From: an uncultured Cetobacterium sp. | GTDB taxonomy: Bacteria > Fusobacteriota > Fusobacteriia > Fusobacteriales > Fusobacteriaceae | Direction of reading: 5' to 3' | Assembly (NCBI RefSeq): GCF_945952365.1 | Contig: NZ_CAMFHX010000003.1 | Coordinates: 1 to 64,000 of the forward strand | DNA length: 64,000 nucleotides | Shown here: in pieces, positions 15,747-43,530 of the stretch | How positions within the stretch are numbered: position 1 is the first letter of the stretch | Layout: each line of letters begins with the position of its first letter | Program-made: the position numbers and the translations under genes | The notes under the pieces: generated by a model | Told to the model about the DNA's origin: nothing | What the model saw: only the letters and a program-made list of their open reading frames with translations | The model's database searches: none

Positions 15747-15781
15747 TATAGCATAACAAGAAAACGTGTGAGGTGAGTTTT

Positions 15782-16427: not shown

Positions 16428-16462
16428 TTTTTTACAAAAGGGATTTTCCCTTTTGTAAAAAA
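16428..16462 (+). terminator. 15-bp perfect hairpin, overlaps next promoter
   Basis: TTTTTTACAAAAGGG pairs with CCCTTTTGTAAAAAA around a 5-nt loop. The right arm contains the distal TTGTAA box (16453-16458) of the kinase promoter and the left arm its inverse, so terminator and regulatory site are physically merged. Confidence 0.75.
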
Positions 16463-16495
16463 CGATAAAAAATTGTAAGAAGCATAAGTTATTAT
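16453..16495 (+). promoter_or_regulatory. two-box promoter of the kinase-Ppx gene
   Basis: TTGTAA 16453-16458, 14 nt, TTGTAAGA box 16473-16478, 11 nt, TATTAT 16490-16495. Confidence 0.75.
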
Positions 16496-16523
16496 ACATA
16501 TATAAAGATTGCAGGAGGAAAAG

Positions 16524-18585: not shown

Positions 18586-19299
18586 ATGAAAATTTTATTT
18601 GATTTTAATAATGAAGTAGAAAAAGAAGCAGAAAACCCTATGGCAAGAATCCCAGTTGTAATTATTGCAGATACAAGTTCATCAATGAATGGAGAAAAAA
18701 TTAATATCCTTAATTCTGAAATTAAAAAGTTTTATGATGAGGTTAATCACAACTCTAAAAATGAGATTTTAAAATACTCTTTAGATTTGGCTGTTCTTGG
18801 ATTTAAATTTGATACTTGTGCAAGAGAAACACATCCAGTTGTAATTAATAAATTTAGTGTTATGGAATCTCAAATAACTCCAACATTCAATGCTTTTGGT
18901 CACACACCTTTAGGGGCAACAGTAAATACAGCTATAGATATGTTAGAAAAAAGAAAAGAAATGTATAAAATTGGAGGAATTCAATATTATCAGCCAATGT
19001 TAGTTATAATAAGTGATGGAGATCCTACTGACAGTATTGAAAGCGCTACTAGAAGGGCTATAGAGTTATCATTAAAAAGAAAACTTAGTGTTTACCCTGT
19101 TATCATAGGAGAAGATGGAAATTTAGATAATCTGCAAAGATTTACTCCTAATAAAATTTCTAAAAGAGTTAGAACTGAAGATTTACCTCAAGTTTTTAAA
19201 TGGTTGCTTTCTAGTGCTAAAAAGGTTAGTGAAAGTACTATCGACTTTGATATCACTGTAAATATAACTAAAGATTGGAATGAGATTGTAAATGGATAG
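18586..19299 (+). CDS. TerY-type von Willebrand factor A domain protein (2)
   Basis: A 237-residue vWA protein related to the one at 15782. MIDAS residues are present: ADTSSSMNG at about 28-36, GHTPLGATVN at about 105-114 and ISDGDPTDS at about 144-152. The last 30 residues extend past the domain. The ATG follows CGGAGG. It lies in the probable operon kinase-vWA-PP2C-small protein-radical SAM, 52 nt after the kinase. Together with the kinase and PP2C it completes a TerY-P triad. Confidence 0.88.
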   Translation: MKILFDFNNEVEKEAENPMARIPVVIIADTSSSMNGEKINILNSEIKKFYDEVNHNSKNEILKYSLDLAVLGFKFDTCARETHPVVINKFSVMESQITPTFNAFGHTPLGATVNTAIDMLEKRKEMYKIGGIQYYQPMLVIISDGDPTDSIESATRRAIELSLKRKLSVYPVIIGEDGNLDNLQRFTPNKISKRVRTEDLPQVFKWLLSSAKKVSESTIDFDITVNITKDWNEIVNG

Positions 19300-19309
19300 G
19301 GGGAGAGTT

Positions 19310-20125
19310 ATGAATTTTAAAGTTTGTGGTGTTAGTGTTAGAGGGAGAGCTCATGAAATTGAGAACTCTCCTTGCCAAGATAGTATTTTTTATAAAAGCT
19401 ATGGAAACAAGAGTTTTATAGCCTTAGGGGATGGAGCTGGAAGTAAAAAGTTTTCACAAATAGGATCTAAGGTGATAACTTCAGAAATTTGTGGTATACT
19501 AAATAGAGACTTTGATTATATTTATAAAGCTAAAGCTGCTGAAGCTAAAAATTTTATTATAAGTAAGCTTTGCAATTCTCTTCAAATAGAAGCTTCTAAA
19601 AAAAATATAGCTGTCAGTGAATTAAGCTCAACTCTTATGTTTCTAGGAATCAAAGACTCAAAACTTATTATTGGACACCTTGGAGATGGAATGATTTGTA
19701 TGAAGAAAGGCGAGAAAATAGAGATTCTTTCTAAAAGTGAGGAGAGAGAATATTCAAACACAACTTATTTTGTTTCACCTAAAAATGCAATGAAATTAAA
19801 TCTTTTCAGAGGGGACTTAAATATTTTAAAAGCAGTTAAAGGGTTTTTCCTGTTTACAGATGGATGTGAAAATTTCCTTTATAGTAAGAGACTAGATAGT
19901 GTTAATCCAATTTTAAATGAAGTTTTAAATTTTTTAAATAAAAAATCTGAAAAGCAAGTAAATAAACAAATAAAAATATCTATCAATAGCTGTATCAAAG
20001 AGAAAAAAACTTTTGATGATTGTTCTCTTGGAATCTTATCAATAAACACAAATAGAAGAGTTATTCGTATTAATAAAGGAATACGAAGAAAAGCTAAATA
20101 TAGAAAATGTTTATTAAATAGATAA
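19310..20125 (+). CDS. PP2C-like protein phosphatase
   Basis: A 271-residue PP2C-family (PPM) phosphatase of the TerY-associated kind. Visible motifs: the N-terminal GVSVRGRAHEIENSPCQDS segment (the usual GxxHxxxxxxxQD pattern), ALGDGAGSKKFSQIGS (about 44-59, metal-binding Asp), LGDGMI (about 124) and FTDGCENF (about 182), FDDCS near the end. These bind the two metal ions used to remove phosphate from Ser/Thr. The expected partner is the kinase two genes upstream. ATG 19310 is preferred over the upstream ATG at 19292 because GGGGGAGAG precedes it. Confidence 0.85.
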   Translation: MNFKVCGVSVRGRAHEIENSPCQDSIFYKSYGNKSFIALGDGAGSKKFSQIGSKVITSEICGILNRDFDYIYKAKAAEAKNFIISKLCNSLQIEASKKNIAVSELSSTLMFLGIKDSKLIIGHLGDGMICMKKGEKIEILSKSEEREYSNTTYFVSPKNAMKLNLFRGDLNILKAVKGFFLFTDGCENFLYSKRLDSVNPILNEVLNFLNKKSEKQVNKQIKISINSCIKEKKTFDDCSLGILSINTNRRVIRINKGIRRKAKYRKCLLNR

Positions 20126-20308: not shown

Positions 20309-22022
20309 GGTAGGAGAAGTTAATTTTGACTTCTCCTATTTTGACGTTTTTCCAAAAATGAGAGTAATTTTAGAGAGTGATTTAAAAAATCCAATTTTAC
20401 AAATAGTTACTTTAGAAAAAAAATTAAGAGATTTAGATTATGAAGAGATTGAAATTGAGGTTTTGAAAAGATATAGAGATGCCTTTAATTTCCTTTTAGA
20501 TTCAACATATTTACTTAAAAATGGTAACAGAAAAAGCTTTACTTTCACTAAATCTTTAACTCAAAAAAAAGCTATTAGATTATCTTTAACTGAGAATTGT
20601 AATTACCGTTGTTTCTTCTGTCATGAAGAGGGGATGGATATGAACGCTCGTAGAGAATCAGCAAATTTTGAAGAGATGTGTGAACTACTTTTGAAAATGA
20701 GGGATTTAAACTATCAAGACTTAACTTTTACAGGAGGGGAGCCTCTTGTAGCTAAAAATGATCTAATAAAATATATGAACTTTATGGAGGCTAATAATTA
20801 TACTCCAGATTTAACTATTGTAACTAATGGCTATTTAATAGATAAGGTTTTAATAGAAAGAATAAAAATATATAAAGGAGAGTTTAAATTTAATTTCTCT
20901 ATGCATAGTGTAGATAAAGAAAGTTACTTCCAAATTGTTAATCCTAAAAATGGTGATATAGATTCTTTTGATAAAGTTCTTAAAAATATTGATTTGATTA
21001 GAGAAAGTGGTATCAAATTAAAAATGAACTTTGTTCTTTTGAATGGTTTAAATTCATCTCCTGATTATATAAAAAGAATTCTCGAGTTTGCAAATGAAAA
21101 AGGAGCTTACTGTGTTAAGTTCTTAGAACTTCTTGTAACAGATAAATTAAATAAGTTTTTTAATTACTTCTATAGTTTAGAGTCTGCTATTAAAGATTTA
21201 GGTGACGATATATTCTTAGAGAATTTAACTTACAGAAGAGGAGAGTATATATTTAAAAATAACTTACTTGTTGAGTTTCAAAAATGTACTTGTGCTAATG
21301 GATGTAGTGTTTGCCCATTAAATAGAGAGATTAATGTAACTCCTCAAATGTCATATTATCCATGTTTCATCCTAGATACTAAAAAGATAGATATTGATAA
21401 TAACAATATAGAGGAATCTTTAAAAAAGGGTGATGCAGTTATTGAAAATCTTATTAAAAGATATGGTAATAAAAGCCCAGTTATTATCAAAAATGTAGCT
21501 AATGAAAAAGAAAAAAAAGAATTTTATTATAAGTCTGTATTTACTTTAGAAGAGATTGAAAATTTAGTTGATAAAAATAGTTTTAAGTTAGATAGACAAA
21601 GAGCTTTTACTGATTATATATACCAAAATGAAAATGATCAGATTAATCTTAATTATAAAAATCTTTTAAAATTAAGTAAAAATAGTTATGAGAGTCATTA
21701 TAGAGAGATTGTACAAAAAAGAGAGTTTAACTATGAAAAAAATCATTGCAGTATTGAATTTATAACAGAGGGAAAAATTATTGAAAGTAAAGAAAATTAT
21801 GAGAGCTATTTAAAACATCTTGGATTTGTTAATAGTCTGACTTTAAATTGGAATATTAAATTTTTCAAGAGTAAAAATAGGGAGTTTAGTATTGGTATCA
21901 ATGAAAATACTGGACTTATTTATGTAGTTTCACCTAAAGAGATTGATAGTGAGTTATCAAACCTTTTAGATTTAAAACTTTTAAAAGAGGATCTTTATAA
22001 AGATATAGTTAAAAATATGTAA
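20271..22022 (+). CDS. radical SAM protein, MoaA-like
   Basis: A 583-residue radical SAM enzyme. The first 100 residues are an added N-terminal domain; the cluster motif CNYRCFFC (Cys110, Cys114, Cys117) binds the 4Fe-4S cluster and SAM, followed by LTFTGGEPL. A second Cys set (CTCANGCSVC about 348-357, then YYPC) resembles the auxiliary cluster of MoaA/SPASM proteins. The C-terminal 150 residues have no recognised domain. The start is ATG 20271 after GGGGGAGG, inside the 55-aa gene. The substrate is unknown; a role in modifying a protein or small molecule in the phospho-signalling system is inference. The TAA stop is part of the distal box of the next promoter. Confidence 0.85.
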   Translation: MEMILKEGRGRVEVGEVNFDFSYFDVFPKMRVILESDLKNPILQIVTLEKKLRDLDYEEIEIEVLKRYRDAFNFLLDSTYLLKNGNRKSFTFTKSLTQKKAIRLSLTENCNYRCFFCHEEGMDMNARRESANFEEMCELLLKMRDLNYQDLTFTGGEPLVAKNDLIKYMNFMEANNYTPDLTIVTNGYLIDKVLIERIKIYKGEFKFNFSMHSVDKESYFQIVNPKNGDIDSFDKVLKNIDLIRESGIKLKMNFVLLNGLNSSPDYIKRILEFANEKGAYCVKFLELLVTDKLNKFFNYFYSLESAIKDLGDDIFLENLTYRRGEYIFKNNLLVEFQKCTCANGCSVCPLNREINVTPQMSYYPCFILDTKKIDIDNNNIEESLKKGDAVIENLIKRYGNKSPVIIKNVANEKEKKEFYYKSVFTLEEIENLVDKNSFKLDRQRAFTDYIYQNENDQINLNYKNLLKLSKNSYESHYREIVQKREFNYEKNHCSIEFITEGKIIESKENYESYLKHLGFVNSLTLNWNIKFFKSKNREFSIGINENTGLIYVVSPKEIDSELSNLLDLKLLKEDLYKDIVKNM

Positions 22023-22059
22023 TTTAGCCTCAAATTCTGTAAGACACTAGTTGTATAAT
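22017..22059 (+). promoter_or_regulatory. two-box promoter of the 22090 gene
   Basis: ATGTAA 22017-22022 (containing the stop of the radical SAM gene), 14 nt, CTGTAAGA box 22037-22042, 11 nt, perfect TATAAT 22054-22059. Confidence 0.75.
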
Positions 22060-26546: not shown

Positions 26547-26547
26547 A

Positions 26548-27084: not shown

Positions 27085-27099
27085 TTTTTCCCTCCTTTT

Positions 27100-28425: not shown

Positions 28426-28454
28426 TTTTAGCCTCCTATTTTTAATTTTACTCA

Positions 28455-30099: not shown

Positions 30100-31118
30100 C
30101 TCTTAATCCCTTTCAGGGATATTTTTTTATTTTGAGAACTAATTGGCAAACTGGAGAAACAAAGGAAAACTTGTCTTAATCCCTTTCAGGGATATTTTTT
30201 TATTTTGAGAGAAGGTTCTATGTATAAAGGCTTCTTATCAGCGTATGTCTTAATCCCTTTCAGGGATATTTTTTTATTTTGAGGCCGCATTCTTTGGGAA
30301 CATGAAGATTGATGCGAACGAGGTCTTAATCCCTTTCAGGGATATTTTTTTATTTTGAGCGTCAAAGAGCTTGTGAGATTATTTCATTAGGAAGAAAGTC
30401 TTAATCCCTTTCAGGGATATTTTTTTATTTTGAGTTAATACAGGTAACTATGAATCATCAAGTTCTAAAGTGTCTTAATCCCTTTCAGGGATATTTTTTT
30501 ATTTTGAGTTGCTAAATCTCAAGCCAGAGATACTGAGCTTGAAAATAGTCTTAATCCCTTTCAGGGATATTTTTTTATTTTGAGGTACATATGGGGAACA
30601 AAGGAAGATTAGGCTTATTCATTGTCTTAATCCCTTTCAGGGATATTTTTTTATTTTGAGCTTGGTAGCTTAACAGGTTCTTCTACTTTATCATCAGTAG
30701 GGTCTTAATCCCTTTCAGGGATATTTTTTTATTTTGAGCCAAAAGGATGTATTTAACGCTAGAATGGAGCAGTCTGTAGTCTTAATCCCTTTCAGGGATA
30801 TTTTTTTATTTTGAGATAAAACCTCTTATATTCGATGCGGATTTAAAGTTGACAAAGTCTTAATCCCTTTCAGGGATATTTTTTTATTTTGAGTTTAGAG
30901 TCGGTAATGGCTCTTCTTTGAAAGGCGTAAAGTCTTAATCCCTTTCAGGGATATTTTTTTATTTTGAGAAAAAAAACAAAAATAAGGAGGAATTTATTAT
31001 GTCTAAGTCTTAATCCCTTTCAGGGATATTTTTTTATTTTGAGAAAGCGTTAGGATTATCTCAAGAAGAGAATAAATGGTTGTCTTAATCCCTTTCAGGG
31101 ATATTTTTTTATTTTGAG
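30100..31118 (-). CRISPR. CRISPR array 3, 14 repeats, 13 spacers
   Basis: Fourteen 37-nt repeats at 30100, 30173, 30247, 30323, 30398, 30472, 30548, 30624, 30702, 30779, 30857, 30932, 31007 and 31082. On the plus strand each reads GTCTTAATCCCTTTCAGGGA then a T-rich part ending TTTTGAG; the first has C for G at position 1. The stem ATCCC-TGAAA-GGGAT suits a Cas6 product. The long AT-rich leader with a promoter is on the right, so the crRNAs come from the minus strand and end in GGATTAAGAC, similar to GGATTGTGAC of arrays 1 and 2. Spacers are 36-41 nt. Confidence 0.98.
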
Positions 31119-31378
31119 CCGTTAGTTTTCATAGAACTCTTAATTATAGAGCTTTTATAGTATATTTTCTTTTAGTAAAATTTAGTAATTTTCTCTAAAA
31201 TTTATACTAGCTAGGATAGAAAACGCTTGTAATTTGTCTCTTGAAACATCTAATTTAGTAAAAATTTAGATACCTAAAAACCTCTTCTATTGAGCTACCC
31301 TTTTATATCTTGATTTGTCCATAGAAAAATTTTCTGGGTCTATGATATAATTATAGCATATAAAAAGTAAGTTTTCAA
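31119..31378 (-). promoter_or_regulatory. leader and promoter of array 3
   Basis: A gene-free 260-nt AT-rich stretch. On the minus strand it has TTGAAA (31378-31373), 17 nt, TATAAT (31355-31350) within TATATGCTATAAT, the same extended -10 as in the leaders of arrays 1 and 2. The first repeat follows about 230 nt downstream. Confidence 0.7.
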
Positions 31379-31440: not shown

Positions 31441-32778
31441 TTATAAATTTTTTAAAAGTTTTAACCAAAATTCACATGTATATCTTTTTTCATTCTGTGT
31501 AAATGCTTTATAAAAATGACTTCTCATGTATTCAGGTAGCTCATTCCAAAGAGTATTCCAAATTCCTTTTGGAGTATTTTCTAATTCTTTTCCGTCTACA
31601 CTATATTTAAAATCAGAGGTTTTAATTCTTTCAACTAATGTTTTATCACTTTGTCTCTGATCGTAAGGGTGTTTTCCTCTCATTAAAATTTTAAAAAGAA
31701 GTATAGAAATTGGAAAATATTCATTTGAAATATCTCTTATATATGTCCCCATATTTTCACCACTAAACTCTGGTGGTAAAAATTCCTCTTTAAAAACATA
31801 ACATGGGTAATTCTCAATCTGATACGAATCTATATCTATAAGACATATCTCATCATTGTCATTAACAAGGATATTATTTGGATTAATATCCCCTATTAAA
31901 ATATTTTTTTTATGAAGACTATTTATTGTTGTTAAGATATTTCTAGCAATTTTTTTCGCACTTTCTTTATCTTTGAGAGTTAAAAGTACTCTTTCCAAAG
32001 TTTTTCCTTCAAATTTCTTCATACTATAACCTACGATCTCATTTAATTCATTAAAAACAATACCTTCTAGTGTTGCTACATTAGGAATTAATATATTCTT
32101 ATTAGATAAAAGCTTAAGCTTTTCAACTCTTTCCTCTGTTAGTTTATTTGCATGAAAGATTTTTATAGCTAAATCTTCATAAAAATAGATTTTGCCTTCT
32201 CCTCCTTCGGCTAAACTTTCAGGTAAAATTATAGACTTCTCTTCTCCTTTTGATACAATTTTTATTGTATCTTTCTCTTCTGGAATATTGGTATTTATTA
32301 TTGTCTTAGAATTATCAACCTTTATTGCTTCTTTAACAGACTTTTGTTTTCCAAAATATGCTAAGGTATCTATTAGATCCCCAAATTCATCAACTTTTTT
32401 TATATAAACATTTCTATAGTTAACCGATTTGCAAGTTTTTGTTTTTAAAAGATCTCGTGCTAAGTTTTTATCATCTGTTATTATTAACATATCCTTTTGA
32501 ATAGCTCCATCATGAACTCTTGCCAATATAGCCGCATCAGCATGAGCTGTGGCGGAAGCTTTTACATGTATCAATCTATTTTTCCTGTTTAAAACCTCTA
32601 ATATTTTTGATGCTGTTCTTAATTCCTCTAAATTTTTCCCCTTACTTTGTAGTTTTTTTAGCTCTTTAAAGCTTTCTTCAAACACACAAAATTGTGATAT
32701 ATTAGATTTAGAAATAAATTTTAGAGTATTACTATTCATTAATGCACATGTATCTATTACAACTATTTTTTGAATCAT
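31441..32778 (-). CDS. PIN-domain nuclease fused to protein kinase
   Basis: A 445-residue fusion. Residues 1-145 are a PIN domain with acidic residues placed for catalysis: IDTCALMNS (Asp9), FEESFKEL (Glu34/35), HADAAILAR (Asp81) and ITDDKNLA (Asp102/103), so ribonuclease activity is expected. Residues about 185-445 are a kinase of the same family as the one at 16524: EGGEGKIYF (191-199), AIKIF (Lys206), IGDINPNNIL (Asp297), IDID (314-317) and NEYFPISILLFKIL. The ATG at 32778 follows AGGAGG; upstream in-frame codons are AT-rich noise beyond the promoter. Phosphorylation may gate the nuclease (inference). Confidence 0.88.
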   Translation of the reverse strand: MIQKIVVIDTCALMNSNTLKFISKSNISQFCVFEESFKELKKLQSKGKNLEELRTASKILEVLNRKNRLIHVKASATAHADAAILARVHDGAIQKDMLIITDDKNLARDLLKTKTCKSVNYRNVYIKKVDEFGDLIDTLAYFGKQKSVKEAIKVDNSKTIINTNIPEEKDTIKIVSKGEEKSIILPESLAEGGEGKIYFYEDLAIKIFHANKLTEERVEKLKLLSNKNILIPNVATLEGIVFNELNEIVGYSMKKFEGKTLERVLLTLKDKESAKKIARNILTTINSLHKKNILIGDINPNNILVNDNDEICLIDIDSYQIENYPCYVFKEEFLPPEFSGENMGTYIRDISNEYFPISILLFKILMRGKHPYDQRQSDKTLVERIKTSDFKYSVDGKELENTPKGIWNTLWNELPEYMRSHFYKAFTQNEKRYTCEFWLKLLKNL

Positions 32779-32802: not shown

Positions 32803-32845
32803 ATTATACTTTGAAGAGATTACAAAAAATTTAAACAATTTACAT
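32803..32845 (-). promoter_or_regulatory. two-box promoter of the PIN-kinase gene
   Basis: Read on minus: ATGTAA (32845-32840), 14 nt, TTGTAA (32825-32820), 11 nt, perfect TATAAT (32808-32803). Confidence 0.75.
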
Positions 32846-32865: not shown

Positions 32866-32908
32866 TTGTAATTTTGAATAAAAAATTGTAATATACATAT
32901 ATTAAGAT
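32866..32908 (+). promoter_or_regulatory. two-box promoter of csx20
   Basis: TTGTAA 32866-32871, 14 nt, TTGTAA 32886-32891, 11 nt, TAAGAT 32903-32908. It is divergent from the PIN-kinase promoter with only 20 nt between the two sites. Confidence 0.7.
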
Positions 32909-32951: not shown

Positions 32952-33332
32952 ATGAGTACTATGTTTTTACTTTTCTCTCATAAACTAACTAATGAACAAA
33001 TTGCATCTGCTAAAAAAGATTTAAATTGTGAAAATTTAGTTTATTTACCAAGAGAGTTACAAAATCTTTGGTCTAATATTCCTGCTACTGAGCAAGACTA
33101 CGAGCATTTGATACATTTTGAAAACTTTATTTTTAAAAACTATAAAGAAGGCGATTACGCACTTATACAAGGTGATTGGGGTTATACCTACCATATGATT
33201 AATTTTTGTAAAAAAATTGGAGTTATTCCTATATATTCAACTACAGAAAGAAATTCTAGAGAGGTTTTCAACCAAGATGGAAGTGTTTCAAAGATATCTT
33301 TATTTAAACATGTGATTTATAAACGTTATTAA
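32952..33332 (+). CDS. csx20: Csx20, CRISPR type III accessory protein
   Basis: A 126-residue protein that I recognise as Csx20: MFLLFSHKLTNEQIASAKKD, LVYLPRELQNLWSNIP, YALIQGDWGYTYHMINF and IGVIPIYSTTERNSRE, with FKHVIYKRY at the end. The family accompanies type III loci and has been placed among proteins that degrade cyclic oligoadenylate (ring nucleases). Its position between the CARF gene, the PIN-kinase and cas10 fits a signal-removal role. It has its own two-box promoter while the Cas10 operon 84 nt downstream does not show one. GAGGTGAG precedes the ATG. Confidence 0.85.
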   Translation: MSTMFLLFSHKLTNEQIASAKKDLNCENLVYLPRELQNLWSNIPATEQDYEHLIHFENFIFKNYKEGDYALIQGDWGYTYHMINFCKKIGVIPIYSTTERNSREVFNQDGSVSKISLFKHVIYKRY

Positions 33333-33415: not shown

Positions 33416-35068
33416 ATGTATTTAGTATCAGTAGAAACTGTTAAAATTAAGGATTTTATTTTTAACACCAACAAACTAAAAACAATAAGAGGTGCTAGTT
33501 TTTTATTAGACTATTTAAATCAAGTTGTTGTAACCGATATTTTAAAGAAAAATCATGTCGAGGATAAAGATGTTCTTTATATCGCTGCAGGAAATGCTAA
33601 ATTTTATTGCAAAGATAAAGAGGTGGCTAAAAAAATAGAAATTGAAATTATGGAGGCTTACAATAATTTTGCTCCAGATTCAAAGCTAGCTATATCATAT
33701 ATAGATGCTGGAAATGAAAAAGTTTGGGTTGCTATGGATAAACTAGCTAAAGAAACCAATATTGTTAAAAATAAAGGGTTTTCGAAAATAAATTTAGATC
33801 TACCATTTATACAAAGATGTGATATCTGTTGTGAAAATCCAGTAGAAATAAAAAAAGAAAATTTTAATGAAACTTTAAAAAACTATGTTAAAAATTTTGA
33901 ACCATATTTAGAGAGAGAAAAATCTAAAAATAATGCAAATGAAAAATTAAAAACTTTAAATGATAGATATAAAATAGAGTCTCAAATTTTTGATAAAGAT
34001 AAAATTTCTGGAATCTGTCCATCATGTTTTGCAAAATATATAGCTGCAAATCTTATTAAAGAGGATTTCCAAGAGATTGGGTTTTATTCTGATTTTAAAA
34101 AAGAGTTTAAAGATGAGTTTAAACCTGTAGATAGCTTGGAAGAATATAAATTAAAGAAATCATTTATAGGTTTTATGTACTCTGATGGAGATTCCGTTGG
34201 TGAATTTTTAAAGAATGCTAAGGAAAATTTCCAAGATGAAGCAAAATATAAAGAGTTTATAAAAACATTCTCAGTAACTTTAGATAAACATACTAAAGGT
34301 AGCTTAATCGAAGTTTTAAAAGAGTTAAGAGAGGAAAATAAGCTTGATGAACACTTTGGAGAGTTTCTAATTGTAGGAGGAGACGACGTTTGTGCTGTCT
34401 TTCCTGGAGATATAGTTATGGAAGTCTCTACAAGATTCCAAGAAAGATTCAACGCTAAAATGAAAGATTACTATAAAACTTGTAACTTCAAAAAGAATGG
34501 TAGCAATATAACATCTTCAGGTGGTGTTGTTATAGCTAAAGCTAAAACACCTATGTATTATCTTTTTGATCAAAGTCTGACTCTTCAAAAAAATGCAAAG
34601 AAAAAGAGATATGAAACATATGAAAATAAAAATGTAGAGTTTAAAAATGGATTTATTGATTTCGCAGTTATAGGTTCTGAAGGAACAGTTAATATTGCAG
34701 AGTTCAGAAAAAGAATTAAAAACCTTATTCAAAGACCATATTCTATTGAAGATATTGATTCTTGTAAAAAAATCAATAGTTTAGTTCAATTAATTGAAGA
34801 TTTAAAAACTTCTAACTTCCCTAAAAATAAGTTAAGAATGTACTATGATTTAAAAGTTGAAATTGAGAAAAATCCTAATAAATCTATAGAAAACCTATTT
34901 TCACTTATTAATACTATTGTAAAACTTGATTCTGAACAAAAAGAATTAATTTTAAGTTGGATTGGTAAGGAAAATTTAAATAACTCTCAGGAAGATACAT
35001 TGAAAAATATATTAAATAATATTTTTGATGTAATTGAACTTTATGATTTTGTAGGGGGGAGTAAATAA
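33416..35068 (+). CDS. cas10: Cas10 (type III large subunit) without HD domain
   Basis: A 550-residue Cas10. It begins directly with the first palm-like domain (VSVETVKIKDFIFNTNKLKT) and has no N-terminal HD nuclease region, which normally takes 100 or more residues. Zinc ligands are CDICC (135-139) and CPSC (201-204). The second palm carries YSDGDS (255-260) and the cyclase motif VGGDDV (GGDD 321-324), so cyclic oligoadenylate synthesis should be intact. A helical D4-like region ends the protein. It heads an operon of coupled effector genes. The promoter region shows TATAAT at 33377-33382 but no two-box pattern. Confidence 0.93.
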   Translation: MYLVSVETVKIKDFIFNTNKLKTIRGASFLLDYLNQVVVTDILKKNHVEDKDVLYIAAGNAKFYCKDKEVAKKIEIEIMEAYNNFAPDSKLAISYIDAGNEKVWVAMDKLAKETNIVKNKGFSKINLDLPFIQRCDICCENPVEIKKENFNETLKNYVKNFEPYLEREKSKNNANEKLKTLNDRYKIESQIFDKDKISGICPSCFAKYIAANLIKEDFQEIGFYSDFKKEFKDEFKPVDSLEEYKLKKSFIGFMYSDGDSVGEFLKNAKENFQDEAKYKEFIKTFSVTLDKHTKGSLIEVLKELREENKLDEHFGEFLIVGGDDVCAVFPGDIVMEVSTRFQERFNAKMKDYYKTCNFKKNGSNITSSGGVVIAKAKTPMYYLFDQSLTLQKNAKKKRYETYENKNVEFKNGFIDFAVIGSEGTVNIAEFRKRIKNLIQRPYSIEDIDSCKKINSLVQLIEDLKTSNFPKNKLRMYYDLKVEIEKNPNKSIENLFSLINTIVKLDSEQKELILSWIGKENLNNSQEDTLKNILNNIFDVIELYDFVGGSK

Positions 35069-36666
35069 TGATAATAAAGTACAGTGCTGTTTTACAAACA
35101 CCAGCGATGACTGGAAAAGATGGAGTTATTGGAAAGGATTTAGATATTATTACAAAACTTGATAACAATGGTCTTCCATATTTTAGTGCTTCTACAATAA
35201 AAGGTATTTTAAAAGAAAAGGTATCTTTATTTTCGACAGCTTTAAACTTTAATTTTCCTATCAATAAGTATTTTGGAGTAGAAGGTGAGATTGAATCAGG
35301 TATGAGATTATCTCCTTTAACAATGGATTCTAAGAAATACTTAGAATATAAGGAGTTTTTAACTGATGATAGATCAGGAATTAGAATAGATAAAGCTAGT
35401 AAAACTACAGCTGAAGGTTCACTATTCTCATATGAGTTTATTAGAAGCGAATTGGAGTTTACTGGAGAGATTGAAATTTTTTATCCTCTTGAAGGAGAGA
35501 ATCTTAAATTTTTCAAAGCTTGTTTAGAAAGAATAGAGGCTATTGGTGGTTTAAAGTCAAGAGGATTGGGTAAAGTTAAAATTAAAGTTTTAGAATGTAT
35601 TGAAAATAAAAATAACTCTCATAAAACTTTAAATACAAGTAATCTAAAAGAGTACAGCTACACTCTTAAACCTTTAGAAAATTTAATTTTAAAAAATCAA
35701 GAGATTGGTAATGAGATTACAACTAATAACTATATTCATGGTGGAACTTTAAGAGGAGCTATTATCTCTCTTTTAGACAGAGAATTTAATGTAGATACCG
35801 AAGCTCTTATTAAAAACTTAAAAGTATCTCAAGGGTTACCTAAAGATCATTTTGTAGCTTCGGCTTCTATTTTACAAAGTAAGTATCCTGTTAAAAATGG
35901 AAAGGTAGTTCGTATAAATAAACTTTTAGCTAAGAACTCTGAAGATAAAGTTGATGGTAAAGAGGTTAAATTTGAAAGATATGGCTCTCCAATTGTTAAT
36001 AAAAACTTTGAAAAATTAGTTTTAAATAAACAAAGTGAAATAAATATTGCAATTGATAGTAAAACTAAAACCTCTGAAGAGGGTATGCTTTTTAATAAAG
36101 AGATATTTTTAGCTAAAGATATGGAGTTTTCAGGAAAAATAGTTTTAAGTGAAGAGATTGTTAAAACTATTTCAAATAGATATATCTATATTGGAAAAAA
36201 TAAAAGCAAAGGATTTGGAAAATGTTTGATAACTTTTGAACCTACAAATTTGAAGAAAGAAAAAGTTGATTCGAGTAAACTTCAAAGATTATCAAGGGAG
36301 ATTGGAACAGATAAAAAATATTTTACAATAGATTTTAATTCAGATATGATTTTACCATTTATGGATACTGAATCTATTGGTAACAAAATTAAAGCGCTTT
36401 TAGGTTTAGAATCAGTTATATGGGAAGAGAGTAAAAGTTTTATCAATCTAATCTCAATTGGTGGTTATAATCAATTAAACAAAATTAGAAAATCTACAGA
36501 GTTTGCTATTGCAAAAGGTGGAGTATTAACTTTTTCAACTACTGAATTTACTAACGACCTAATTCAAAAACTAAGTTCTATCCAAGAAAAAGGGATAGGA
36601 AGTAGAAAAAATGAGGGGTTTGGAGATGTTGAAATCAGCAGTAAAACTCATTTGGAGGTAAAATAA
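35068..36666 (+). CDS. fused RAMP protein, Cas7 (Csm3-like) plus Csx10/Cas5-like
   Basis: A 532-residue protein with two RAMP units. The first (about 1-185) is Csm3/Cas7-like: YFSASTIKGILKEKV, RSGIRIDKASKTTAEGSL and the glycine-rich GGLKSRGLGKVKI. The second (about 195-530) resembles Csx10: YIHGGTLRGAIISLL, IYIGKNKSKGFGKC (third G-rich element) and EKGIGSRKNEGFGDVEI at the end. Such proteins belong to type III-D effector complexes, where they line crRNA. The ATG overlaps the cas10 stop (TAATG). Catalytic Asp for RNA cutting cannot be fixed by eye. Confidence 0.82.
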   Translation: MIIKYSAVLQTPAMTGKDGVIGKDLDIITKLDNNGLPYFSASTIKGILKEKVSLFSTALNFNFPINKYFGVEGEIESGMRLSPLTMDSKKYLEYKEFLTDDRSGIRIDKASKTTAEGSLFSYEFIRSELEFTGEIEIFYPLEGENLKFFKACLERIEAIGGLKSRGLGKVKIKVLECIENKNNSHKTLNTSNLKEYSYTLKPLENLILKNQEIGNEITTNNYIHGGTLRGAIISLLDREFNVDTEALIKNLKVSQGLPKDHFVASASILQSKYPVKNGKVVRINKLLAKNSEDKVDGKEVKFERYGSPIVNKNFEKLVLNKQSEINIAIDSKTKTSEEGMLFNKEIFLAKDMEFSGKIVLSEEIVKTISNRYIYIGKNKSKGFGKCLITFEPTNLKKEKVDSSKLQRLSREIGTDKKYFTIDFNSDMILPFMDTESIGNKIKALLGLESVIWEESKSFINLISIGGYNQLNKIRKSTEFAIAKGGVLTFSTTEFTNDLIQKLSSIQEKGIGSRKNEGFGDVEISSKTHLEVK

Positions 36667-37052
36667 TGGATTTGTTAAGAGAGAAAGCTTTAAAAATAGT
36701 TGATAATAGATCTAATGAAATAATTAAAGAGTTTATTGAGGGAAAATTTAACTTTAAAACTGCTACTAAATCTCAGTTTGCAACTTTAGAAGGAATTTTA
36801 GAACAAAGAAATTTCAACTTAGAGTCTGAGAAAATAGAGGATTTTATACTTCAAAAACTACAAAAACAAAAAAGTGAAGATTTTTTTAAAGATGTATTTA
36901 AAAACTATATAGAAAAAAGAGAAGTGATTTTAAATTTTTTAAACTCTTCTGAAGAGGATACCAAAGTTAAAAATCAAATTTTCAGAGAGATTTTTTATCT
37001 AATTAAAATTAGTTTTAGAAAAGAAAACGCTTTAAAAACTTTAAATATTTAG
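36666..37052 (+). CDS. cas11: small subunit, Cas11-like
   Basis: A 128-residue, all-helical protein rich in Lys, Glu and Phe. Its size and place between the RAMP genes of the effector operon fit the small subunit (Cas11) that stacks along the target strand in type III complexes. Sequence conservation in this family is poor, so the call rests on position and helical composition. The start ATG overlaps the previous stop by 1 nt (TAATG). Confidence 0.75.
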   Translation: MDLLREKALKIVDNRSNEIIKEFIEGKFNFKTATKSQFATLEGILEQRNFNLESEKIEDFILQKLQKQKSEDFFKDVFKNYIEKREVILNFLNSSEEDTKVKNQIFREIFYLIKISFRKENALKTLNI

Positions 37053-37064
37053 GGGAGGGAAAGA

Positions 37065-37814
37065 ATGAATTTTAGTCAATTTAAAAATAGATATGTTATC
37101 ACAGGAGAGCTAACAGTTGAAAATGCTCTTCACATTGGAAGTGGAAAAGTTGAAGGAGATTTTGACTCAGCTTTTATAAAAACAGGAGAAAATGGTTACT
37201 ACATTCCAGGGTCATCTTTTAAAGGGTATTTAAGAAGTAAAGTTGAAGGATTTTTAGTTGGGTCACCGTTTGGATTAAAAGCTGGAAATGATTTGTTAAA
37301 TGAAGGGGATGTTCTTGGAATATTTGGTTATACAAGTTCTGATATCTCAAAAGATGATAAAGTTACAGAGAGATTAAATAAAATATTAGGAGCAGATTTT
37401 AAAAATTTTGCTTCTAAACTTCATATATCTGATTTACAAATTATGGATAACAATACAAAAGAGGTAACTAGAGATGGTATCAAAATATCTAGAAAAACTG
37501 GGGCAACTGTAAAAGGAGCTAAATTCGACTACAATGTTATTGAGAAAGGAAATAAGTTTTCTCTTGAAATGAGTTTAGAAAATATAGAAGATTATCAACT
37601 GGAACTTATTATGTTGGGATTAAAAGATATCCTTGCTGGAGATTTGTTTGGTGGAAAACTTTCAAGAGGTATTGGAAAGTGTAAATTAGAATTAAAAGCT
37701 TGTAAATTTGTAGATTCAAATGATAAAGAGTCTTTAAAGAACTATATATTTAAAGGTGAATTAAAAACAAAAGATATAAAAACTCTTAATAAAATAACTA
37801 AAATATCACTATAG
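37065..37814 (+). CDS. cas7: Cas7 (Csm3-like) backbone subunit
   Basis: A 249-residue RAMP protein of the Csm3 type: ENALHIGSGKVEGDFDSAFI near the N-terminus, with Asp at the place used by Csm3 for target-RNA cleavage, IPGSSFKGYLRSKVE, RDGIKISRKTGATV and the G-rich FGGKLSRGIGKCKL. It should form part of the backbone that holds crRNA and cuts target RNA at 6-nt steps. GGGGAGGG lies before the ATG. It is one of four Cas7-type genes in this operon, as in type III-D. Confidence 0.9.
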   Translation: MNFSQFKNRYVITGELTVENALHIGSGKVEGDFDSAFIKTGENGYYIPGSSFKGYLRSKVEGFLVGSPFGLKAGNDLLNEGDVLGIFGYTSSDISKDDKVTERLNKILGADFKNFASKLHISDLQIMDNNTKEVTRDGIKISRKTGATVKGAKFDYNVIEKGNKFSLEMSLENIEDYQLELIMLGLKDILAGDLFGGKLSRGIGKCKLELKACKFVDSNDKESLKNYIFKGELKTKDIKTLNKITKISL

Positions 37815-37823
37815 GGGGATGCT

Positions 37824-38678
37824 ATGTTTAATGTTAATAAAAATGAGATAAAAATATCTCTTAAAATTACTCCTAAATCTCCTCTTTTAATTAAGGCTAG
37901 TGATGATGTTCAGGAGAAGGGAAATCTAATTCAATGGAATACTACAGCTGGTAGTAAAGAGGCATTTATTCCTGGTTCAACTCTTAAAGGTATGTTAAAA
38001 GATATTTTCTATTCAATTTGGTATGACCACTTTAACTTAGAAGAGGATAAGTTTAAAGAGATTCCAGAGGGAAAGTATAAAAATGATGATAAAGTATATG
38101 ATTATGAAGATTATATGGAGGATATTTTAAAAGAAAAAGGTGAGGATGTTTTCTTGGAGAAATCTTTAAAAATATCTAAACTTTTTGGAGCTAAAAATCT
38201 TAAAAGTAGACTTCATATAGATGATGCTTATTTTAAAAAACATGGAAAAGAGGAGAAAGGTCCCAAAGTTGAAAAAGAGGAACCTAAATCAATTACGCCA
38301 ATAGATAGATTTACTGGTGGTGCTGTTGTTCCGTTACAATTTGAATATACAACTGATGCTTTTGTAACTGAGCTAACTATTAAAAATATTGAAAAACATG
38401 AATTAAAAGCTTTGCTTTTTGCAATAAGAGATAGTATTGATGGTGATGTTAGAATTGGTTCTTCTAAAACTAGAGGATTTGGAGAGATTGAGTTATCTAT
38501 TGAAAGTATGGAATATAAGGAGTTTAAAAATAGCTCTTTAACTTTAGATAGTTCTAACTTTAATCTAGACACAGAGAAATCTTTAAAATTAGGAGAAGAC
38601 TACCTATATAAAGTTTATAAATTAAAAGAGAACGAACCTTTGAAAAATTTTGAAATTCTAAAGAAAGTGGTTGGGTGA
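37824..38678 (+). CDS. cas7: Cas7-type RAMP subunit
   Basis: A 284-residue RAMP protein: SLKITPKSPLLIKASDD, FIPGSTLKGMLKD, SITPIDRFTGGAV (the RFTGGA element typical for Csm3/Cas7 in III-D) and IGSSKTRGFGEIEL. The region 80-120 is an acidic insertion. It is a backbone subunit of the same complex. GGGGGATG precedes the start. The end overlaps the next gene by 4 nt (GTGA). Confidence 0.88.
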   Translation: MFNVNKNEIKISLKITPKSPLLIKASDDVQEKGNLIQWNTTAGSKEAFIPGSTLKGMLKDIFYSIWYDHFNLEEDKFKEIPEGKYKNDDKVYDYEDYMEDILKEKGEDVFLEKSLKISKLFGAKNLKSRLHIDDAYFKKHGKEEKGPKVEKEEPKSITPIDRFTGGAVVPLQFEYTTDAFVTELTIKNIEKHELKALLFAIRDSIDGDVRIGSSKTRGFGEIELSIESMEYKEFKNSSLTLDSSNFNLDTEKSLKLGEDYLYKVYKLKENEPLKNFEILKKVVG

Positions 38679-39070
38679 TTAAAGTGATAAAAAATTTGGA
38701 TACTGTTATTAATGACTTAAATATAAATGAGAGCTTTAACACTATACTAGTTGATTATGAAAAGCAGAATGGAATAACAATCTCTAAAGATGTTACAGAG
38801 CTTCAGTCTCTAAAAGAAGCTACTCCTTATAAGTTCTATATATTTAATGATTCTATTATGGTTTATGGAGTAAAAATTGATGAAGATGAGTACTTTGTTG
38901 AAGAGATAAAGGCTAGTGATTTTTCTTCTGAGGCTAAAGAAGCAGTTATGTTCTTTGATGAAAAAGAGATTACTAAAGTAGTTGGAAACTCTGTGGAGAG
39001 AAAGCTTAAATTCCGTAGGGGGTTAATTGGCGGAGTTGAAAAAATACAGTTTATTGGACTGGAGGGGTAG
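38675..39070 (+). CDS. csx19: Csx19-type CRISPR protein
   Basis: A 131-residue protein with SLKEATPYKFYIFNDSIMVYGVKIDEDEYF-like strands and a conserved-looking EAVMFFDEKE segment. It lies between RAMP genes and directly before a large RAMP gene; this pairing is typical of Csx19 in type III-D loci. The start is GTG at 38675, overlapping the previous stop (GTGA); GTG 38684 is an alternative. Its molecular role is unknown in the family. The name rests on context and general resemblance. Confidence 0.7.
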   Translation: MIKVIKNLDTVINDLNINESFNTILVDYEKQNGITISKDVTELQSLKEATPYKFYIFNDSIMVYGVKIDEDEYFVEEIKASDFSSEAKEAVMFFDEKEITKVVGNSVERKLKFRRGLIGGVEKIQFIGLEG

Positions 39071-39072
39071 TT

Positions 39073-41064
39073 GTGGCAAAAGGAAAGATACAAAATGTTG
39101 ATTTAAAAAATTGTCAGATTAAAATAGGTAAAGAAATTTATAAAATAGATAAAAATACAGCAAGAATACTATCAGATGATATTTTTGCTAAAAATTCTGA
39201 AGTAGAATATATAATTTTAGAAAATAAAAATATTTCTATAAAAAAACTTAGAGGATTGGAATTTATTAAAGAAAAAAGTGTAGCAAAAAATATTCCTTCA
39301 CATTCTGGAAACTTAAAATCTATAACTAATTCTGTTACTAATAGTTTAAATAAAACTAACATGATTTTCAGTTATCCATATAACTTTGTTAGAGTTGGAG
39401 AAAAAGTTGAAAGAGAAGCAATTGATAAAGGTGAACTTTCTGGAAAGATAGTTTGTACTTTAACTAATAGATCGCCACTATTTTTCCCAGAACCTAAAAG
39501 TAGTAAGACATCTAATGATCATTCTGAAGAGATGTTCTATAAAAGAGATGGAAAGTATATTATTCCTGCAAGTTCTTTAAAAGGTAGCTTTAGAAGTGTT
39601 TTAGAGGCTATATCTAATAGCTGTTTACTTAATATTGAAACTGAGAGGCTTGAAAAAAGGCTTGGTGCTGGAGCATTTAATGATAGAGTTTTTGGAATAA
39701 TTAAAAGACTTCCTACAGAACATGAGGATGGACTTATTGTTCAGGCTACTGTTTTAAAAGTTAAAACTGAAGCTCTTCCTTTTGAATACAAAGATAAAAG
39801 AGGCAAGGGAAAAGAAAATATTTATGACTTACCTCTATCTAATTTAATAAAGAATTATGAACATATAAATAACAGTAATGATTTTGGAAAGATTACTAAT
39901 GGAAAAAAAGATATGGAGGGTATTCTTTGGATAAGTTCTGACATTTTCAGTAAGAAACATGAAAAAATACTTTATCCAACTCAAAATGGAAAATCATTTA
40001 AATTTACTATGGATGAATACAAAGATATTCAATATCTTTTAAAACAAAGAAGTGAAAGAGATTTAAAAAAGAGTGGAAAAGAGTTTTATATAGAAGATAT
40101 AAAATCTGGAGATCCAATTATTTTCCAAGTTGATAAAAATGGAAATGCTAAAAATCTTGCTTTTTCTGAAATTCCAAGATTGAGATATAAATATAGTCCA
40201 TATGATTTAGTGCCAGAAGAGTTAAAAGCTTGTGATACTTTTGAGGATGCTTGTTTTGCTTGTAGAATATTTGGAATGACTGGTAACAACAATGAGGATA
40301 AAAAAGAAGAGGATAAGGATAAGATTTCTCTTCAAGGAAGAGTTTTCTTTAAAGATGCTACTATTGATAAAGATAAGGCTAATATTCAGTCTAAACCTAT
40401 TCTTATCAAATCTCTGGGTGAGCCTCATCCTACTTTAACAGGTTTCTATCTAGAAAATGGAACATATGATGATAAAACTAAAATAAGAGGTAGAAAATTC
40501 TATTGGCATCATAAAGATAAACTTAATACTGATTATTCTAAGTTTAAAACTTCTATTACTCCTGAAAAAGAGGAAAAGCATAACTCTAGTATTCAGTTCA
40601 TGAATTCTGGAAACGAATTTAACTTTGAAGTGTCATTTAAAAATTTAAAAGAGGATGAGTTAGGACTTCTTCTTTTAACTTTAGAGTTGGAAAATGATAT
40701 GCTTCATAAGTTTGGAAAAGCTAAAGCTCTTGGTTTTGGTAGCTCAGAAGTTAAGGTAACTAATCTTTTACTTCAATCTAAAAATAGGTATGAATCTTTT
40801 GATTCTTCATATGTTGAAAGTGAAGATAAACAAAAGTTTGTAGATAGTTTTAAAAATAAATTTAATCTTGAAAACAAAGATCAATGGAAGGACTTAAAAG
40901 TTATTCTAAATCAAACTAATAAACTAGATTTCTCTAAGAGTCCATTCCCTGAAGAACAAAAATTTAATAAAAAAACTAAAACTAGTTCTGGAGATTTTAA
41001 TACTCTAAATTGGTTTTCAAATGATAAAACTAGAATTTTACCTAAAATTCAAGATTATAAATAG
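39073..41064 (+). CDS. large RAMP protein of TIGR03986 type
   Basis: A 663-residue protein. The first 80 residues are a beta-rich domain that could be OB-like; the core begins at GKIVCTLTNRSPLFF and has YIIPASSLKGSFRSVLEAIS (about 158-177), a second element FACRIFGMTGN (about 394) and HKFGKAKALGFGSSEV (about 550). This matches the large type III-D RAMP proteins annotated as TIGR03986, which cap or extend the Cas7 backbone. GGAGGGG precedes the GTG start, 2 nt after csx19. Confidence 0.85.
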   Translation: MAKGKIQNVDLKNCQIKIGKEIYKIDKNTARILSDDIFAKNSEVEYIILENKNISIKKLRGLEFIKEKSVAKNIPSHSGNLKSITNSVTNSLNKTNMIFSYPYNFVRVGEKVEREAIDKGELSGKIVCTLTNRSPLFFPEPKSSKTSNDHSEEMFYKRDGKYIIPASSLKGSFRSVLEAISNSCLLNIETERLEKRLGAGAFNDRVFGIIKRLPTEHEDGLIVQATVLKVKTEALPFEYKDKRGKGKENIYDLPLSNLIKNYEHINNSNDFGKITNGKKDMEGILWISSDIFSKKHEKILYPTQNGKSFKFTMDEYKDIQYLLKQRSERDLKKSGKEFYIEDIKSGDPIIFQVDKNGNAKNLAFSEIPRLRYKYSPYDLVPEELKACDTFEDACFACRIFGMTGNNNEDKKEEDKDKISLQGRVFFKDATIDKDKANIQSKPILIKSLGEPHPTLTGFYLENGTYDDKTKIRGRKFYWHHKDKLNTDYSKFKTSITPEKEEKHNSSIQFMNSGNEFNFEVSFKNLKEDELGLLLLTLELENDMLHKFGKAKALGFGSSEVKVTNLLLQSKNRYESFDSSYVESEDKQKFVDSFKNKFNLENKDQWKDLKVILNQTNKLDFSKSPFPEEQKFNKKTKTSSGDFNTLNWFSNDKTRILPKIQDYK

Positions 41065-41076
41065 GAGAGGGTACAA

Positions 41077-41865
41077 ATGTTTTACAGTTTACTCATAAGA
41101 ATTAAAGCTCAAAAAAGTGGAGAATTCAAATTTTTTACAGGTAAAAAACTTCATGCTGCTTTTTTAAATATAATAAAAGAAGCTGATAATGAACTTGCCC
41201 AAGAACTTCACGATAAAGATATTCCCAAAGAGTTTACAGTTTCAAATATTTTTGGAACAAGTAGCCGTGGATTTAAACTTGAAGAGGGAAAGGATTACCT
41301 TTTTAGAGCTACATTCTTAAATGATAAGATATACAAGATCTTCTCTAGTGAAATATGTAAAAACATACTTTTATCAAAGGGGATATTTATTGAAAATATC
41401 CCCCTTTCTATTGAAGAGATTGTTTATAAAGATAGTAGATATTCAGGAGTTATGGACAAGATAGATTCAACATCTAAAAGATACAAATTAACATTTAAAA
41501 CTCCTACACTTTTCAAAAGTGGAGATTTCTTTATAAGATATCCTGAAATCAATCTACTTTTCAAATCCCTTCTAACTAAGTATAACCTTTATTCAGAGGA
41601 AAAAATTGATGAAAGTATATTGGAGTTTTTAAATGAGATTAACTATGAGAAGATGGATTTGAAATTAAAAAGAGAGTATTTAAATAAATTTTTTATAGAG
41701 GGATTCGTAGGAGAACTTATTGTTAGAATAGATAGTAAAAATAAAGACTTTATTCAAGATATAAACAAACTACTTAACTTTGCTTTCTATTGTGGCGTTG
41801 GAACTAAGAGTAGCGTTGGATTTGGACAAGTTTTAGTTGAAAATTTAGAAGGAGTTGAGAGATAG
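41077..41865 (+). CDS. cas6: Cas6 endonuclease of the effector operon
   Basis: A 262-residue Cas6: FFTGKKLHAAFLNII with His32 in the first helix, a likely catalytic position, SNIFGTSSRGFKLEEGKDYLFRATFL, KFKTPTLFKSGDFF, and the C-terminal glycine-rich GVGTKSSVGFGQV (about 243-255). It processes pre-crRNA, probably of array 3 whose repeat has a strong ATCCC/GGGAT stem (inference). It is the third Cas6-type gene in the window. AGGAGAGGG precedes the ATG, 12 nt after the RAMP gene. Confidence 0.92.
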   Translation: MFYSLLIRIKAQKSGEFKFFTGKKLHAAFLNIIKEADNELAQELHDKDIPKEFTVSNIFGTSSRGFKLEEGKDYLFRATFLNDKIYKIFSSEICKNILLSKGIFIENIPLSIEEIVYKDSRYSGVMDKIDSTSKRYKLTFKTPTLFKSGDFFIRYPEINLLFKSLLTKYNLYSEEKIDESILEFLNEINYEKMDLKLKREYLNKFFIEGFVGELIVRIDSKNKDFIQDINKLLNFAFYCGVGTKSSVGFGQVLVENLEGVER

Positions 41866-43530
41866 GTGACAAACTATATTGATAAAATAAAACAACTTTG
41901 TCCCGAGTTAGATGAAGTTGGAGTTGGAGCTGTAAATAAATATATATCAGATCAAGAGCTTAACCCTATAGAGGAAGATTTTCTATTCAATTTAAAAAAT
42001 TTAAATATTGAAAAGCAAAAAGAAAAAATATCTCAAATAGATATTGAGAATATTAGTACTTATATTTCATTTTTTAGTTTAGCTGATATTGGAAAGTATG
42101 AATACTCTATTTTAGAAAAAAATCTTCAAATTTTTGAAAATATAGAAAATATCTATTTTCTTGCTACACCTCAAAGTATTGAGAAGTGTAAAAATGAAAT
42201 TAGTAAAATGAAAATATTATCTAAAGATCTTAATATTAAAGTTATTGATATTGATCCTAATGATTATGAAGGTGTTTACAATCTTTTATTAAAAGAGATT
42301 ACAAATAATGATATTGAAAACAAAAATATCCTTATTGATAATACCTTAGGTCCTAAAATGGTAGGTTATTCTCTTTATAAATTTTCAATAGATCAAGGGA
42401 CTCGATTAATAACGTGGCAAAGTCAAAATTTAAAAGATTCTACTAAAAGAGTTCCTGGAGTTGATACTTTAAACTATATTGAGTTTCCTCAATTGAAAAA
42501 TTCAACTATTATAAATAAAATAAATAATTTTTTAGAAAACTATAAATTTGAAGAAGCTTCAGATTTAGCAAATTCTATTAATAATATTGAAGAAGCTGAT
42601 GTTTTTGAAAAAATAGCAACTATTTTTAATATTGATTCACTTATGTCTTATGAATCTTTCTTAGAATCTATAAAAGAGTTTATAGATTCGATTAGTTCTA
42701 CCAAATATAGAGCAAGTATAAAAACTAAACTTAAACCATTTATAAAAGAGTTAAATGAATTTTTAGAAACTAAAGATAAAAAAATTCAGTATATTAATTT
42801 TTTAAGTTTAGTCTTTAATTATTTAAAACAAAAATTTAATGAAAATCCAATATTTAAAGTTATAATTTGTGACATATTAAAATCAAATAAAATTTTAACT
42901 AAAACTGAAAAAGATAATATTTTAATACTAATTAATGCGGATAAGTTTGAAGATATTATCAACATTAATAAGGTACTAGATACATTTACTGCCTTCATAT
43001 TAGTTACTTATAAAGAGTTACCTAAAACTCATCCTCTAGAATTAGAAATTTTTTATGATTATATTCTTTATAGCTTACCTAAAACTATTTATTTAAAAAA
43101 TACAATATTACATATTGATAAACAAGGAATTGAAATTGATTTAGTCAAAGAATACAATCTAAGAGAAAATATGTATCATAGTTCTTTCAATTTAAAGGAT
43201 TTTTCAAACAAAAAGAAAAATAAAAAAATTCTAATTACTTTATTTGGAAAAATTAATGGTGAACTTTCTAATGAAGAATTTAAGGATTTAATAGATTCTG
43301 AAAATACAAACAATACAGATTCTCAACAAGACACATTGATTTCTAGATTTAATAAGTTTGTAAAAACCTTCAATGAGTTTATTAGTCATATTATTGAAGA
43401 TAATTATCCTACAAAATCTACTTTTTTAAAGGATCAAAATTTGATAGAGTATAAAAAAACTATAGCTAAAGATGAAAGTGGTAGATCTGTTAATAAATAT
43501 ATTTTAAAAATAAATCCAATTTATATGTAA
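41866..43530 (+). CDS. CARF-domain effector (Csx1/Csm6-like)
   Basis: A 554-residue protein. The CARF domain spans about 60-190: IYFLATPQSIEKCKNEISKM, VIDIDPNDYEG and the signature ILIDNTLGPKMVGYS (155-169), which binds cyclic oligoadenylate. The C-terminal part is helical and contains NLRENMYHSS with Arg433 and His438, an R-x4-H motif of HEPN ribonucleases, so RNA cleavage on activation is likely though the surroundings are not typical. It is the last gene of the cas10 operon; its GTG start follows the cas6 stop directly (TAGGTG). Confidence 0.78.
   Translation: MTNYIDKIKQLCPELDEVGVGAVNKYISDQELNPIEEDFLFNLKNLNIEKQKEKISQIDIENISTYISFFSLADIGKYEYSILEKNLQIFENIENIYFLATPQSIEKCKNEISKMKILSKDLNIKVIDIDPNDYEGVYNLLLKEITNNDIENKNILIDNTLGPKMVGYSLYKFSIDQGTRLITWQSQNLKDSTKRVPGVDTLNYIEFPQLKNSTIINKINNFLENYKFEEASDLANSINNIEEADVFEKIATIFNIDSLMSYESFLESIKEFIDSISSTKYRASIKTKLKPFIKELNEFLETKDKKIQYINFLSLVFNYLKQKFNENPIFKVIICDILKSNKILTKTEKDNILILINADKFEDIININKVLDTFTAFILVTYKELPKTHPLELEIFYDYILYSLPKTIYLKNTILHIDKQGIEIDLVKEYNLRENMYHSSFNLKDFSNKKKNKKILITLFGKINGELSNEEFKDLIDSENTNNTDSQQDTLISRFNKFVKTFNEFISHIIEDNYPTKSTFLKDQNLIEYKKTIAKDESGRSVNKYILKINPIYM

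Follow-up and report, generated by a model that had tools for sequence, protein, structure and literature searches.

The window analyzed here is a stretch of 64,000 nucleotides from an uncultured Cetobacterium sp., with its relatives in the Fusobacteriaceae. It encodes a protein with a PIN domain, a predicted RNase, fused to a protein kinase (hereafter, PIN-kinase), located between a CRISPR array and a type III-D CRISPR operon. A second kinase of interest belongs to a TerY-P island about 15 kb away. The genes and the array are as follows.

15773..16426, plus strand: TerY-like vWA protein (vWA-1)
16509..18533, plus strand: Kin-Ppx, a TerY-P kinase fused to a Ppx/GppA-like domain
18586..19299, plus strand: second vWA protein (vWA-2)
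19292..20125, plus strand: PP2C phosphatase (Pfam PP2C_2, 5.9e-37)
30101..31119, no strand assigned: CRISPR array of 14 repeats, between the CARF gene at 28542-30050 and PIN-kinase
31441..32778, minus strand: PIN-kinase fusion, 445 aa (PIN about residues 1-142, variable linker 143-183, TerY-P-type kinase 184-445)
32952..33332, plus strand: Csx20 (ring-nuclease family), first gene of the type III-D operon (NCBIfam, 4.6e-46)
33416..43530, plus strand: type III-D effector genes, namely Cas10, Cas7/Cas5 genes, Cas6 and a CARF protein (41866-43530)

Csx20 and the array are located beside PIN-kinase as the first-pass annotation had placed them. PIN-kinase is a unit of its own, divergent to Csx20, and the vWA and PP2C genes are 11-17 kb from it in a separate transcription unit. 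Both ends of the PIN-kinase open reading frame were confirmed, with the start at the ATG at 32778 and AGGAGG just upstream; an alternative, longer frame starting at 32898 would begin upstream of the gene's own promoter. The Cas10 has a GGDD cyclase motif and no N-terminal HD domain was noticed; signalling through cyclic oligoadenylate is therefore probable. Csx20 degrades cA4 (PMC12409355).

The N-terminal domain of PIN-kinase was weak by sequence, with Pfam PIN_9 matching the window copy at E=1e-3 and the G002 ortholog at 2e-4, both below the cut-off. A fold search with the full-length model returned mainly kinases, and the PIN domain was therefore modelled by itself (pLDDT 76). The model aligned to 3ix7 with a VIA-align Z of 12.8 (rmsd 3.6, 125 aligned), and also matched Utp24 (5yz4, Z 11.8), AF0591 (1o4w, Z 10.9) and SMG6 (2hww, Z 10.3); the match to a VapC was lower (Z 7.4). 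In the predicted structure, the PIN fold is clear. The acidic residues, which had been described as complete, are indeed so, because the tetrad of D9, E39, D81 and D103 is common to 11 diverse aligned PINs (D9, E39 and D103 invariant, D81 at least 90%). The RNases SMG6, Utp24 and AF0591 share this fold and tetrad with PIN-kinase but have no kinase fused.

The kinase domain (residues 184-445) is Hanks-type (Pfam Pkinase, 1.5e-10; PknB 5u94, VIA-align Z 19.5). The catalytic residues K206, D297, N302 and D315 and the GGEG are kept, as across TerY-P kinases, and the invariants of that family (the GGEG, K, GD..N..N and D.DS.Q motifs) are all found. Pfam, NCBIfam and PADLOC scans of PIN-kinase gave the PIN and kinase domains only, with no CARF or SAVED sensor domain. 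The dN/dS was 0.11-0.16 for the PIN and 0.10-0.13 for the kinase, and looser (about 0.3) for the linker; by these ratios, both domains are under purifying selection.

The two kinases of the window had been assigned to one family, which is corroborated by 37% identity (E=2.9e-42) between the kinase domains of PIN-kinase and Kin-Ppx. Among 103 TerY-P-like kinases placed in one tree, those fused to a PIN grouped with Kin-Ppx in a single clade (SH-aLRT 87), two marginal Helicobacter matches excepted. A Kin-Ppx-type fusion of a TerY-P kinase and a Ppx/GppA-like domain is also encoded in a Porphyromonadaceae triad (L036, 9974-11992), and a link of this fusion to polyphosphate or (p)ppGpp is possible. 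A MoaA/viperin-like radical SAM gene (20247-22022) adjoins the TerY-P genes in the window. Its homologs at L121 (15569-17311) and L123 (5145-6095) adjoin type III-D operons in genomes without PIN-kinase and Kin-Ppx, and an accessory role of this gene in type III-D is possible.

The divergent region between PIN-kinase and Csx20 (173 bp) has TGTAA half-sites paired exactly 20 bp apart. This spacing is kept in G002 and G020 while the stretch between the pairs varies. A search with the TGTAA-pair pattern located this element upstream of vWA-1, of Kin-Ppx and of further window genes, with the consensus TTGTAAW-N13-TTGTAAK-N10-TANNNT. The copies are as follows.

3901..3942, minus strand: copy for gene 3049-3858
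4909..4950, plus strand: copy for the cas1-like gene 4978-5949
9101..9142, plus strand: copy for the small gene 9171-9467
10677..10718, plus strand: copy for the beta-CASP/MBL RNase-like gene 10755-12014
12010..12051, plus strand: copy for gene 12083-12958 and then the Hsp70-like gene 12958-15576
15705..15746, plus strand: vWA-1 promoter
16454..16495, plus strand: Kin-Ppx promoter
22018..22059, plus strand: copy before gene 22090-23187, which has no assigned function
32803..32844, minus strand: PIN-kinase promoter, ATGTAAA-N13-TTGTAAT-N10-TATAAT, kept in G002 and G020 and persisting before the decayed G005 copy
32867..32908, plus strand: promoter of Csx20 and the type III-D operon

Both kinases had been noted to have two-box promoters, and this was borne out in the form of the TTGTAA-pair element, which is far above chance. 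The boxes were also read as a sigma-70 promoter, and matches to that consensus were at chance level. The 30 sites from four genomes, many of them orthologous and thus not 30 independent cases, were mostly 37-63 nt from the start codon, and all 30 were followed by TANNNT at a constant distance of 10 nt, a feature that the first pattern did not demand. The extended scan pattern (TGTAAW-N14-TGTAAK-N10-TANNNT), which was drawn up post hoc from the sites, had 10 copies in the window versus 0.015 expected; it is checked independently by where it falls in G020 and by its counts in other genomes. G020, from another genus, had exactly four copies, before vWA-1, Kin-Ppx, PIN-kinase and Csx20. Across the 98 genomes surveyed, there were 11 copies in G000, 16 in G002, 12 in G005 and these 4 in G020, with none for the reversed-pattern controls in any of the four. 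The others had zero or one copy, except for 15 identical copies in G039 that represent one repeated sequence. Apart from the latter, the promoter exceeds chance expectation in the island genomes alone.

The element has direct repeats flanking the -35 region and a good -10, which suggests that it is driven by an activator rather than specified by a sigma factor. The sites of lambda CII provide an analogy for activator-type repeats flanking the -35. A search for the regulator showed that sigma factors are numerous in Fusobacteriota with and without the island, and gave no clear candidate. Other defence-like genes have this promoter as well, thus what it demonstrates is shared regulation and not a shared pathway.

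Several of these other genes deserve mention. The beta-CASP RNase-like protein (10755-12014) had its best matches to aCPSF1 (1.5e-47) and type VII Cas14 (9.6e-46). The two-gene operon at 12083-15576, with its two-box promoter and Hsp70-like protein, is reminiscent of yegD, which adjoins the yegI/pphC locus in E. coli. A second CRISPR locus at 3049-5949 comprises an array (4188-4784) and the cas1-like gene (4978-5949), and its genes have the two-box promoter, so the regulon covers more than one CRISPR system.

To profile the occurrence of these genes, we focused on the 98 Fusobacteriota genomes. Intact PIN-kinase was detected in three of them (G000, G002 and G020, the last being another genus), and intact Kin-Ppx in the same three, in two genera. 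PIN-kinase adjoins Csx20 and type III-D in all three, and each genome that has an intact copy also has vWA and PP2C genes. In a fourth genome (G005), PIN-kinase has decayed (a deletion, frameshifts, and VIDTC to VIDRC), Kin-Ppx is only a remnant and vWA-2 has decayed as well; the type III-D locus retains Csx20, Cas10 and most genes intact, with a shortened Cas6 ORF. With the decayed copy included, PIN-kinase adjoins type III-D in 4/4 cases. The co-occurrence of PIN-kinase with TerY-P genes, proposed as a check in the first-pass annotation, thus held in 3/3 intact cases, with joint decay in the fourth genome.

Related type III-D Cas10 was found in these four genomes and in five more (G030, G072, G042, G049 and G053), the latter without PIN-kinase and without Kin-Ppx. 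The gene order in G020 is TerY-P, an antiporter gene, an array, PIN-kinase and Csx20-type III-D, without intervening adaptation genes. Separate minimal triads of vWA, kinase and PP2C, none of them with a PIN, are found in G021, G032 and G079 (the last by kinase match only). As the four island genomes are related within one bacterial family, they represent one or a few histories and not four independent ones, and the association may go back to one island's history instead of having arisen repeatedly.

A scan of genome contigs with the full-length P0001 peptide gave no relatives, and a profile of the kinase family was therefore used. From 84,980 species genomes the best 80 loci were kept, and viral contigs added 7 more; the plasmid collection gave no PIN match, and the phage collection had two weak matches to the kinase part only. 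Eight PIN-kinase fusions were identified outside Fusobacteriota, five in Hydrogenedentota (L037), Albidovulum (L035), Planctomycetaceae (L043), Lachnoclostridium (L042) and a viral contig (L114), and three (L151-L153), of the order of L042, from a further search. The fusions thus occur in Clostridia, Planctomycetes, Hydrogenedentota, an Alphaproteobacterium and a viral contig. A vWA gene was adjacent in 8/8 and PP2C in 7/8 (the exception, L153, is near a contig end), and the operons have the order PIN-Kin, then vWA, then PP2C. Wide occurrence of PIN-kinases without vWA/PP2C, which had been named as evidence against the proposed connection, was not found in this sample; as only TerY-P-like kinases were sampled, PINs fused to other kinase families could not appear.

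Several PIN-kinases had C-terminal zinc-ribbon/treble-clef matches, a part that the window copy does not have. The Solobacterium and Helicobacter kinases have PIN-like N-termini that are degenerate in appearance, and stand-alone PIN genes are located within TerY-P operons of L042 and L155. No Cas10 was found within 10 kb of the PIN-kinases of other phyla using a small profile of five sequences, and the closest PIN-bearing TerY-P kinases elsewhere had no type III genes within 10 kb. A type III-B locus in a Desulfamplus MAG (L034, 1110-14009) contains Cas10, Cmr3, Cmr4, Cmr6 and a VapC-like PIN. At its end, a CARF-RelE/DUF2103 gene is overlapped by a TerY-P-type kinase without PIN, with vWA downstream, and this is a second, independent contact between type III and TerY-P. 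The Lachnoclostridium island (L042, 473-12767) encodes two TerY-P kinases and a further kinase-like gene, at least three PIN, two PP2C and three vWA proteins.

TerY-P systems are known as antiphage or stress modules, with few known targets. The triad consists of vWA, Ser/Thr kinase and PP2C, and includes the CoCoNuT-associated and STK-OB TerY-P antiphage systems (PMC11090510; Gao et al. 2020, cited in that paper and in PMC7699616); it can act against phage (PMC7699616). PIN-kinase resembles the triad in its kinase family, its vWA and PP2C partners, its defence context and the fusion of the kinase to a nucleic-acid-related domain. The known fusions, however, are to a zinc ribbon or an OB fold at the C-terminus (PMC11090510), whereas PIN-kinase has an N-terminal PIN, and the window copy is split off beside type III-D with a shared promoter. 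The E. coli set of YegI, PphC and YegL (kinase, PP2C and vWA) is a precedent for PP2C acting on such kinases, as PphC is reported to dephosphorylate YegI (PMC13232886), although YegI is membrane-bound and without a PIN domain. Genes for vWA, kinase and phosphatase are reported to be statistically associated with CRISPR loci (UAS-7, -87 and others; PMC10910872). These are likewise CRISPR-associated phosphorylation modules with vWA, but the main text of that study describes no PIN-kinase and no shared promoter. We found no link between PIN and TerY-P kinases and no shared promoter in the searchable literature. Relative to that literature the architecture and the shared promoter may be new, with a prior mention possible in Anantharaman et al. 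(2012) or Shah et al. (2018).

On balance, we favor the reading that PIN-kinase is the kinase that brings an RNase to a TerY-P-type system, split from its triad in these Fusobacteriota and wired by promoter to type III-D; we rate this as somewhat better than an even bet. The type III module, the TerY-P genes and PIN-kinase are all headed by one promoter that is frequent only in the four island genomes, and they therefore probably act as one antiviral programme. The bridge between type III and phospho-signalling proposed in the first-pass annotation stands as genetic linkage (3/3, joint decay, two genera) and as a common promoter; its functional side we can only infer. Infection or stress would turn on the two-box promoters, and PIN-kinase, the TerY-P genes (vWA, Kin-Ppx and PP2C) and the Csx20-type III-D operon would be co-produced. 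The kinase domains and PP2C would then set the phosphorylation state of PIN-kinase or of a vWA partner and so gate the PIN domain, which when active would cut RNA and stop the growth of phage or cell. The reset would come from PP2C, plus Csx20 for cyclic oligoadenylate. The recurrent fusion of the kinase to a predicted RNase is a concrete candidate output for TerY-P that could be tested in vitro, and the shared promoter joins a phosphorylation system and adaptive immunity in one regulon.

PIN-kinase might also be an independent antiphage gene, in which a PIN effector has its own regulatory kinase, sharing a promoter with TerY-P and type III-D without functional contact. Its divergent unit would fit this, as would the promoter copies before the beta-CASP RNase, the Hsp70 operon, cas1 and other genes. 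However, PIN-kinase fusions elsewhere belong to TerY-P operons, and PIN-kinase and Kin-Ppx are kept or lost jointly while type III-D persists without them in G005 and five other genomes, so we regard such independence as a possibility of minor weight. A role in target RNA clearance or crRNA handling, with the kinase tuning the complex and TerY-P secondary, could account for the divergent arrangement with Csx20 and the matching promoters at three intact loci, and the Desulfamplus type III-B locus, with a CARF gene and then a related TerY-P-type kinase, is compatible with it. That role seems improbable, given a PIN-kinase without a CARF/SAVED domain, five genomes with type III-D and without PIN-kinase, and most PIN-kinases being found without Cas10 within 10 kb.

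The intact tetrad and the purifying selection on the fusion would also be expected of a toxin-antitoxin-like addiction gene, in which kinase autophosphorylation holds a VapC-like PIN toxin off and the pair stabilises the island. The best folds are nevertheless of the Utp24/SMG6/AF0591 type, with VapC lower, there is no antitoxin gene, and the decay of the G005 copy was not accompanied by loss of the neighboring type III-D, which makes addiction very unlikely.

Within the favored reading of a TerY-P-type kinase wired to type III-D, the CARF protein at 41866-43530 might sense cyclic oligoadenylate made by Cas10 and activate the two-box promoters as a CRISPR second-messenger regulon, an idea we consider rather doubtful. 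The protein is full-length in the four island genomes, those in which the promoter is frequent; a more distant full-length relative (E=6e-45) is found in G001, without the promoter, and the remaining genomes have partial matches only. No DNA-binding domain was detected in the protein (Pfam gave no HTH, and solved structures gave no useful match). If true, RNA-guided detection of phage would switch on TerY-P and the PIN-kinase RNase, with co-induced Csx20 as the off switch. This raises the question of whether type III CRISPR activation turns on a kinase-controlled RNase.

The CARF proteins at 28542-30050 and 41866-43530 are paralogs (25% identical) without a recognised effector domain, and could act as a regulator or as a new effector. 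An adaptation module on the minus strand (23230-28455) encodes Cas4, Cas2, Cas1 and a reverse transcriptase, together with a Prok-E2-like protein (25881-26546), an NYN-nuclease-like protein (26551-27084) and a ThiF/E1 protein (27103-28455). The Prok-E2-like and ThiF/E1 proteins are a ubiquitin-like-conjugation pair within this CRISPR adaptation operon.
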